DNA from: Frankiales bacterium
Lineage (GTDB): Bacteria > Actinomycetota > Actinomycetes > S36-B12 > CAIYMF01
DNA length: 64,000 nt
NCBI GenBank assembly: GCA_016125335.1
Contig: WGLY01000016.1
Coordinates: forward strand, 62,001 to 126,000
Direction of reading: 5' to 3'
The stretch's first letter is position 1. The number at the start of each line of letters is the position of its first letter. The position numbers and the translations under genes were made by a program. The notes under the pieces are model-generated. The model saw nothing but the letters and a program-made list of their open reading frames with translations, did not search any database and had not been told where the DNA came from. Positions 11,925 through 13,796 of the stretch are shown in pieces.

Positions 11925-12023
11925 CGACGAAGCGTACGGTCCGTGCTCGGCCGGCCCCGCGTCGAGGTCCGAGGGGCGAGACAGGTATGTCCGCCCGCTG
12001 GACCGGTGTGGCATCCTGAGCGG

Positions 12024-12050
12024 GTGAGCACCCAGGTGATCATTACGTAG
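12024..12050 (+). CDS. cimA leader peptide MSTQVIIT
   Basis: A nine-codon frame (GTG AGC ACC CAG GTG ATC ATT ACG TAG) encodes MSTQVIIT: valine, two isoleucines and threonine in a row. It ends directly at a pair of stable hairpins, the second with a U-tract, upstream of citramalate synthase. CATCCT at 12012-12017 resembles a -10 element and ends 6 nt before the GTG, so the peptide would be leaderless. Its composition matches the pathway, since CimA opens the threonine-independent isoleucine route. I infer a ribosome-mediated attenuation peptide; it is too short to prove by coding statistics. Confidence 0.72.
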   Translation: MSTQVIIT

Positions 12051-12110
12051 CGCGTCCGCGACCCCGTCGCCGACGCGCAGCCTCTCGCACCCCCGCGGGA
12101 GGCTTTTTCT
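12050..12110 (+). terminator. Attenuator before cimA: hairpin plus rho-independent terminator
   Basis: The first hairpin pairs GCGCGTC (12050-12056) with GACGCGC (12072-12078), extended by an inner GCGAC/GTCGC stem. The second pairs GCCTC-CG with CGGGAGGC (12080-12103) and runs into TTTTTCT at 12104-12110, a canonical terminator with a U-tract that is rare in this window. A ribosome stalled on the Ile codons would cover the start of hairpin 1. I did not find a convincing antiterminator pairing. Confidence 0.8.
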
Positions 12111-12191
12111 GTGGGCGGGGACGGGGAGCCGGGCGCACCCGGAGCACGAGCAGCAGCACCAGCAGCACCGACCGCGAGACCGAGGACCGAC

Positions 12192-13796
12192 ATGACCAGC
12201 GACGACTTCCACGTCTACGACACGACGCTGCGCGACGGGGCCCAGCGGGAGGGCATCTCCTACTCCGTCGCCGACAAGCTGGCCGTGGCGCGGCTGCTCG
12301 ACGAGCTGGGGGTAGGCTTCATCGAGGGCGGCTGGCCGGGCGCGCTGCCCAAGGACACCGAGTTCTTCGCCCGGGCGCGCACCGAGCTCGACCTGCGCCA
12401 CGCCCAGCTGGTGGCGTTCGGGTCCACGCGCCGCGCCGGCGTCCGCGTGGAGGACGACCCCCAGGTGCAGGCGCTGCTCGACTCCGGCGCGCCGGTGGTG
12501 ACGCTCGTGGCCAAGTCCGACGTGCGGCACGTGGCCGAGGCGCTGCGCACCACCCCCGAGGAGAACCTCGCCATGGTGCGAGACACCGTCGCCCACCTCG
12601 TCGCCCACGGCCGGCGCGTGTTCGTCGACTGCGAGCACTTCTTCGACGGCTACGCCCACGACCCTGACTACGGCGTGGAGCTGCTCAAGGTGGCGGCCGA
12701 GGCCGGCATGTCCGTGGGCGTGCTGTGCGACACCAACGGCGGCTCGCTGCCCAGCGGGATCGCCCGCATCGTGGCCGACGTCCGCGAGCGCTCCGGCGTG
12801 CGCGTCGGCATCCACTGCCAGGACGACACCGCCTGCGCGGTCGCCAACACCATCGCGGCCGTGGAGGCCGGTGCGACGCACGTGCAGTGCACCGCCAACG
12901 GGTACGGCGAGCGCACCGGCAACGCCGACCTGTTCGCCGTCGTCGGCAACCTCGAGACCAAGCTCGACATGCGCGTGCTGCCCGAGGGGCGCCTCGCCGA
13001 GATGGTCCGGGTGTCGCACGCGCTGGCCGACATCGCCAACCTGCCGCCGGACACCCACCAGGCCTACGTGGGCGTCTCGGCCTTCGCGCACAAGGCGGGG
13101 CTGCACGCCAGCGCCCTCAAGGTCAACGCCGACCTCTACAACCACATGGACCCGGCCCTGGTCGGCAACGACATGCGCGTGCTCGTGACCGAGATGGCCG
13201 GGCGGGCCAGCGTGGAGCTGAAGGGCCGCGAGCTCGGCATCGACCTCTCGCAGGACCCGGGCGTGCTCGGCCGCGTCGTCGAGCGGGTGAAGACCCTGGA
13301 GAGCGCCGGCTGGACGTTCGAGGCTGCCGATGCCTCCTTCGAGCTGCTGCTGCGCGACGAGCTCACCGGCGAGCGGCGCCGGCACTTCGCCGTCGAGTCG
13401 TGGCGCACGATCGTCGAGCAGGGTCCCGACGGCCGGGTCGTGAGCGAGGCGACGGTGAAGCTGCACGCCGGGGGCGAGCGGATCATCAGCACGGGGGAGG
13501 GCAACGGACCGGTCAACGCCCTCGACAACGCCCTGCGCGCGGGGCTCACCGCGGCGTTCCCGGAGCTGGCCGCGCTCGAGCTCGTGGACTACAAGGTGCG
13601 CATCCTCGAGGGGGTCACGGGCACCGACGCCGTCACCCGCGTGCTCGTGGGCACCACCGACGGCGAGCGGGAGTGGACCACCGTCGGCGTGCACGAGAAC
13701 GTCATCGCCGCGTCGTGGCTCGCGCTCGAGGACGCCGTCGCCTACGGCCTGCTCAAGGCCGGGCGCGTGGCGGAGACGCCCTCGCTCACCGACTAG
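12192..13796 (+). CDS. cimA: (R)-citramalate synthase
   Basis: It condenses pyruvate and acetyl-CoA to (R)-citramalate, which the LeuCD and LeuB enzymes convert to 2-oxobutyrate, giving isoleucine without threonine. The 534-residue protein has the HMGL barrel opening VYDTTLRDGAQREGISYSV, the cofactor/metal segment GIHCQDDTACAVAN, TANGYGERTGNADL, and a C-terminal LeuA-type regulatory domain. YDTTLRDG-QREG rather than DLRDGNQ separates it from the leuA product and points to the CimA subfamily; a second 2-isopropylmalate synthase is the alternative. It starts at ATG 12192 behind GAGG and is preceded by the MSTQVIIT attenuator. Confidence 0.9.
   Translation: MTSDDFHVYDTTLRDGAQREGISYSVADKLAVARLLDELGVGFIEGGWPGALPKDTEFFARARTELDLRHAQLVAFGSTRRAGVRVEDDPQVQALLDSGAPVVTLVAKSDVRHVAEALRTTPEENLAMVRDTVAHLVAHGRRVFVDCEHFFDGYAHDPDYGVELLKVAAEAGMSVGVLCDTNGGSLPSGIARIVADVRERSGVRVGIHCQDDTACAVANTIAAVEAGATHVQCTANGYGERTGNADLFAVVGNLETKLDMRVLPEGRLAEMVRVSHALADIANLPPDTHQAYVGVSAFAHKAGLHASALKVNADLYNHMDPALVGNDMRVLVTEMAGRASVELKGRELGIDLSQDPGVLGRVVERVKTLESAGWTFEAADASFELLLRDELTGERRRHFAVESWRTIVEQGPDGRVVSEATVKLHAGGERIISTGEGNGPVNALDNALRAGLTAAFPELAALELVDYKVRILEGVTGTDAVTRVLVGTTDGEREWTTVGVHENVIAASWLALEDAVAYGLLKAGRVAETPSLTD

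Follow-up and report, generated by a model that had tools for sequence, protein, structure and literature searches.

Classical attenuation requires a segment of RNA upstream of the terminator that is able to capture one of the terminator's arms. In S. lividans, leuS is known to have a leader. The described actinobacterial leaders of branched-chain amino acid genes are those of ilvB (ilvBNC/ilvBHC), represented in the parts of the sources consulted by ilvL of C. glutamicum, ilvB1 of M. tuberculosis and ilvL of S. lividans (PMC1262725, PMC11857589, PMC10272879, PMC13236596, PMC8079986). For M. tuberculosis ilvB1, changing its four control codons to Ala led to low, inhibitor-independent expression and loss of induction (PMC13236596), and Val-to-Ala changes in the ilvB leader of C. 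glutamicum abolish its response to valine (PMC11857589).

The 64,000-nt stretch of actinobacterial DNA analysed here (the window) carries a gene which the initial annotation called cimA, a name borne out by the family model TIGR00977. CimA commits pyruvate to isoleucine, and the description of its pathway as threonine-independent is right for the enzyme itself; a threonine dehydratase scoring above its family cut-off is also encoded in the genome from which the window comes (G000:C20:38258-39391), so both routes to 2-oxobutyrate exist there. The gene is divergent from its upstream neighbour, beyond which lie leuB and ilvE, as judged by inspection of translations. RNA-based control of CimA was not found in the literature searched. 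The initial annotation knew of no described attenuator for cimA, and our search of open-access papers for a cimA or citramalate synthase leader likewise found none, an earlier mention being possible; the searched parts of two surveys (PMC1262725, PMC2965389) and of the S. lividans transcriptome (PMC8079986) contain no cimA leader. The features of the locus are as follows.

12007..12017, + strand: extended -10 promoter element TGTGG-CATCCT; its GTGGCA block is invariant in 10 genomes of the genus
12024..12050, + strand: leader peptide ORF MSTQVIIT, with GTG start, eight sense codons and TAG stop at 12048-12050
12039..12044, + strand: control codons ATC ATT (Ile-Ile), invariant in 10/10 genomes of the genus
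12050..12078, + strand: hairpin 1, the proposed relay hairpin, GCGCGTC-C-GCGAC / GTCGC-C-GACGCGC; supported by compensatory changes and coevolution of its arms
12079..12108, + strand: intrinsic terminator with a 10-bp stem at 12079-12104 and TTTTT at 12104-12108; supported by compensatory changes
12182..12186, + strand: GAGGA, a Shine-Dalgarno-like motif for cimA, independent of the leader and read from the sequence
12192..13796, + strand: cimA, (R)-citramalate synthase (607 bits with TIGR00977, whose cut-off is 450)

The GTG-initiated frame MSTQVIIT, the long hairpin, the terminator with its TTTTT tract and the CATCCT 6 nt before the GTG, all described previously, are indeed present. The leader reads GTG (12024), AGC ACC CAG GTG ATC ATT ACG and TAG, and its status as an ORF is based on a short in-frame ORF with a terminal Ile run being found at the equivalent position throughout the class. 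Hairpin 1 consists of 7 bp, a C/C mismatch, 5 bp and a CCC loop; it begins 5 nt past the last Ile codon and ends 0 nt ahead of the terminator. The end of the element is separated from the cimA ATG (12192) by 83 nt. Two hallmarks of a ribosome-mediated attenuator, a leader ORF with tandem codons for the end product and an intrinsic terminator between that leader and the first gene, are thus found here. The remark that U-tract terminators are scarce also agrees with our count, in which 12 kb held three terminator-like sites (0.9 in shuffles), of which only the one in the cimA leader has an uninterrupted T5.

Upstream of the leader, CATCCT occupies 12012-12017, 6 nt before the GTG, with a TG ahead of it in the manner of an extended -10 element; a scan for E. 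coli-type promoters found no sigma-70 -35/-10 pair at the element. A [TC]ANNNT hexamer stands 6-7 nt upstream of the leader start codon in 147/194 distinct elements, a spacing which places the -10 for a transcript start at the start codon and implies a leaderless leader. Leaderless leader peptides are frequent in actinobacteria, according to the part of the S. lividans transcriptome study consulted (PMC8079986), and we infer that transcription of the element probably starts at or next to the leader GTG. Some 20-35 bp 5' of the -10, at window positions 11977-11992, lies a GCGAGACAGGTATGTCC-like stretch (consensus GTGAGACnnggnTGTCC) common to several genomes of the same genus; candidate readings are a -35 region, an operator or a piece of the promoter of the divergent gene.

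Neither folding energy nor existing RNA families single out the element. The energy of the window element is not significant (z -0.71), and as energy alone is uninformative, proof of the element rests on comparison. Searches with Rfam at gathering thresholds retrieved two tRNAs in the window and no T-box, riboswitch or leader family, and the best match over the element is at chance level (E 0.93).

The initial annotation had proposed aligning the region upstream of cimA from relatives and asking whether its elements are conserved while the rest drifts. In all 10 same-genus genomes with sequence upstream of cimA, the promoter-leader-hairpin-terminator block is conserved and its flanks drift. 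The block runs GTGGCAYCCT, 6-7 nt, ATG or GTG, variable codons, ATC ATT, one variable codon and a TAG fused to GCGCGTC; this is followed by the arm GACGCGC, then AGCCTCTCGCA-loop-TGCGGGGGGCT and T5. The idea thus passed its comparative check as far as the Ile codons, the hairpin and the terminator are concerned, the Thr codon being free to vary. A covariance model of these ten elements matched 16/17 genomes of the family, with E-values from 4e-9 to 2e-27, and 112/166 genomes of the order Candidatus Nanopelagicales, in 34/40 genera. A second model (R2), built from 100 matches of the first search, matched 257/395 genomes of the class and 33/396 of the phylum, counts that include sibling leaders of other genes. 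We retrieved and read about 180 matched loci, together representing about 30 families. Strong matches at the order level lie, in essentially all cases, tens of nucleotides 5' of cimA on the same strand, as do more than 50 of the 98 loci examined at class and phylum level.

To obtain a sample not biased by the element, we searched for cimA itself, which yielded 80 named loci from Candidatus Nanopelagicales, Streptomyces, Kitasatospora, Blastococcus, Modestobacter, Geodermatophilus, Lentzea, Kutzneria, Saccharomonospora, Actinomadura, Thermobifida, Actinoplanes and others. Exactly one element in the correct orientation was found at 74/80 of these loci, including those of Streptomyces, with zero other matches in 435 kb; the sequences behind these counts are related, and the counts are not independent. 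The proposal of an attenuator-type leader for cimA therefore extends well beyond the window. Of the six loci without the element, three have cimA close behind ilvE, two have it close behind leuB (both upstream genes named by sequence inspection) and one is on a contig that starts inside cimA, which suggests that the element accompanies cimA genes with their own promoter and is missing where cimA appears to be intra-operonic. In one genome the hairpin and terminator occur a second time, as a partial copy joined to a cimA-like coding sequence close to the end of a contig (L016:66-174), probably an assembly artefact of that genome.

The leader codons point to isoleucine. Among the 194 distinct elements, 120 have two consecutive Ile codons, 73 have three and one has four; a few relatives have split or single Ile codons (IKIR, IRIP, CITT). 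ATT is the final Ile codon of the run in 153/194, whereas these cimA genes themselves use it for 17% of their Ile codons and the cimA of the window for 0/13. The residue following the Ile run is free: in leaders that stop at the stem it is T in 26, N in 22 and S in 16, then L, G, I, P, A, D, R, H, M and others, and E, F, Q and C are also seen there. The tandem Ile codons, the free codon after them and the enrichment of ATT together indicate that the signal is isoleucine, read by a codon that is little used in high-G+C genomes. The suggestion that the Ile codons act as the sensor is thereby strengthened, and threonine as a second signal, also suggested from the leader of the window, is not supported, the codon in question being free. 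Judged from sequence comparison, Ile-responsive attenuation of cimA, taken overall and irrespective of how the switch operates, is very probable.

We then asked which RNA structures evolution has maintained. On the genus set alone the sequences are too conserved for covariation to be informative. At the order level, 17/23 pairs show double changes, with 182 double-change cells against 41 in shuffles, a score reached by 0/500 shuffles, and both hairpins are supported. When duplex energies of cognate segments were compared with those of segments exchanged among species, strong coevolution appeared inside hairpin 1 (z -31.5) and inside the terminator (z -23.1), and nowhere else. Cross-pairings between the two hairpins, arm with arm or loop with arm, are about equal to or worse than swapped ones when cognate (z -1.6 to +5.8).

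These results bear on the classical mechanism that the initial annotation implied. In a three-hairpin attenuator, a hidden antiterminator, such as a pseudoknot or a loop-arm exchange as in Corynebacterium ilvB, would form when the ribosome stalls on Ile. Logic of this kind has been described in C. glutamicum (PMC11857589) and other Corynebacterium (PMC10272879) and predicted for M. tuberculosis ilvB1 (PMC13236596). In the cimA elements, however, an automatic criterion picks the terminator as the best fold in 131/132 even when the ribosome is placed on the Ile codons, and in 132/132 when it is placed at the stop. We also folded the RNA as it would be before the 3' arm of the terminator has been made, the ribosome being positioned on the control codon. 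In the E. coli trp, thr, his, leu and phe attenuators, used as positive controls, 0.60-0.90 of the 5' arm of the terminator is sequestered under these conditions (5/5), whereas the fraction gets to 0.6 in 0/194 cimA-type elements, with a median of 0. Cognate cross-pairings that are mostly worse than swapped ones argue in the same direction. Constrained folding, folding ahead of the 3' arm and the comparison of cognate with swapped energies together led us to reject a base-paired antiterminator, loop-arm exchange included, with pseudoknots covered by pairwise complementarity alone. As the defining fold of a ribosome-mediated attenuator, an antiterminator mutually exclusive with the terminator, was not found by these computations, we class the element as a variant that works like an attenuator, and we consider the classical reading unlikely.

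What the elements share instead is their geometry. Hairpin 1 begins 4-6 nt past the last Ile codon in 121/132 elements, and the gap between it and the terminator is 0 nt in 116/132 and at most 2 nt throughout these 132, despite lengths of 21 to 76 nt for the hairpin (21-78 nt among the elements used for the spacing below). The stop codon lies at the foot of hairpin 1 (119 elements) or within its loop (75), and either way the 5' arm of hairpin 1 is covered once the ribosome has reached the stop. We calculated the spacing between the ribosomal P site and the polymerase active site, assuming an active site 8 nt past the base of the terminator and, for the stalled state, both hairpins formed and a ribosome whose A site contains the penultimate Ile codon. 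Across the 194 elements, the folded spacing with a ribosome stalled on Ile is 18-26 nt (median 22, sd 1.55), whereas the linear, unfolded spacing is 42-102 nt (sd 19.8); elements with a hairpin 1 longer than 60 nt, mostly from Streptomyces, have a slightly larger folded spacing. With the ribosome at the stop codon the spacing is 30-71 nt, and a 2-nt shift in the assumptions would narrow the margin between the two states and leave their order unchanged. For the window element the values are 22 nt stalled and 42 nt at the stop. The shortest described ribosome-polymerase complex, a collided one known from E. coli structures, spans 28 nt (PMC11711091). Since the folded spacing falls below this value in all 194 elements, a stalled ribosome, hairpin 1 and a complete terminator should not coexist, and since at least 30 nt are available at the stop codon, a ribosome there and the terminator can. 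The gap between the two states is partly a consequence of having any hairpin at that place; the constancy of the folded spacing is independent evidence.

We propose on this basis that transcription and translation would begin together at the leader GTG. With ample charged tRNA-Ile, the ribosome would reach the stop, cover hairpin 1 and melt it; the RNA then left up to the polymerase, 42 nt here, would suffice for the terminator, and transcription would end with cimA off. With charged tRNA-Ile scarce, the ribosome would stall while reading the Ile codons, its front reaching the base of hairpin 1. The hairpin would then remain folded and, being fused to the terminator, would press the base of the latter against the ribosome; about 22 nt would separate the P site from the active site, less than both machines can share, so that the terminator would be unable to close and cimA would be read. 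Without translation, both hairpins would fold freely and transcription would end. Whether the steric relay through hairpin 1 is the switching step is, on this modelling, an evenly balanced question. That the element is an Ile-responsive, ribosome-mediated transcription attenuator of cimA with such a relay is the reading that the comparative data lead us, with some confidence, to prefer.

The 1:2 hairpin of E. coli trp is a known pause site, and hairpin 1 might likewise serve as a pause hairpin, with termination set by the ribosome's release of the paused polymerase and not by contact with the terminator. As such a role would have it, hairpin 1 does lie directly 3' of the leader, and only a ribosome that gets as far as the stop would melt it. 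A pause, however, leaves unexplained both the 0-2 nt gap and a folded spacing that stays constant despite the variable length of the hairpin, and by itself it gives no account of how starvation would prevent termination; we regard it as slightly less likely than a hidden antiterminator.

The steric relay that we prefer may not be confined to cimA. Weak second matches of the model, at first sight noise, mostly proved to be real leaders of ilvB, leuA, leuS, leuB and ilvA. With model R2, ilvB leaders turn up in other actinomycetes; they read Leu-Val-Val-X-stop, often CTC GTA GTT, and have the same back-to-back hairpins. The model also recovers a leuA leader (LLLT), leuS leaders (LLLT, LLLR) and an ilvA leader (Met-Ala-Ile-Thr-stop, MAIT). 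Their recovery by one model places the cimA element with other branched-chain leaders of actinobacteria, a group whose described member is that of ilvB. By analogy, the codon mutants of the M. tuberculosis and C. glutamicum siblings lend support to the mechanism proposed for cimA; control-codon changes in another sibling, S. coelicolor ilvB, were reported as ineffective (cited in the part of PMC1262725 consulted), which counts against it. The same S. coelicolor result, together with a terminator that folds in nearly all modelled states, would suit a constitutive damping terminator behind a translated, non-regulatory uORF, yet we think this very improbable: tandem Ile codons with ATT bias keep a distance of 4-6 nt to hairpin 1 in most elements, across about 30 families, and each sibling leader encodes the amino acid that suits its gene's pathway (Val/Leu before ilvB, Leu before leuA and leuS, Ile before cimA and leuB).

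Several individual loci deserve mention. Leu-Leu-Leu leaders of like architecture stand ahead of leucyl-tRNA synthetase genes (L128:3408-3515, L236:1682-1792). In one class-level family, the MAIT leader precedes a threonine dehydratase-like gene (ilvA) and not cimA (L194:1427-1543, L211). At the phylum level, outside the class, an Ile-rich leader built in the same way (e.g., ATC ATC ATC GAG TAG) precedes leuB (L165, L174, L170), which suggests that this leuB serves the citramalate/isoleucine route. A match with ...CTG CTG ATC ACC TAG ahead of a prephenate dehydratase-like gene (pheA; L163:1501-1609) is possibly due to chance.

The leader element precedes about nine in ten of the actinobacterial cimA genes sampled. 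If the steric relay is true, it explains why actinobacterial branched-chain leaders have long resembled attenuators with missing parts; the mechanism would need no competing fold, so that searches based on fold competition would miss such elements, and the measured 28-nt limit between ribosome and polymerase would become a regulatory ruler. We put forward, more tentatively than the reading for cimA itself and as slightly short of an even prospect, that this architecture is class-wide in actinobacteria, covering cimA and its sibling branched-chain genes, and that it switches without an antiterminator RNA, through a hairpin relay of variable length and steric conflict with the terminator and polymerase.

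Compared with known systems, the cimA element has in common with the ilvB leaders a short leaderless leader rich in branched-chain codons, a hairpin, a U-tract terminator and a branched-chain amino acid gene downstream. Unlike them, it has cimA as its target, senses Ile only and has a hairpin 1 that neither overlaps the terminator nor pairs with it in an alternative way: the GCC boundary common to hairpin and terminator in C. glutamicum ilvB is absent from it, as is the pairing of the P1 loop with the terminator seen in Corynebacterium ilvB-II. With the trp, his, leu, thr and phe attenuators of E. coli it shares control codons in a leader peptide and an intrinsic terminator ahead of the gene, but the same computation that found a base-paired antiterminator in 5/5 of those found one in 0/194 cimA-type elements. 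The proposed switch also resembles that of E. coli pyrBI, where a ribosome near RNA polymerase blocks the terminator by contact, without an antiterminator. In pyrBI the two machines are brought close by polymerase pausing at low UTP, whereas at cimA closeness would come from a ribosome stalled for charged Ile-tRNA and relayed to the terminator by a hairpin.
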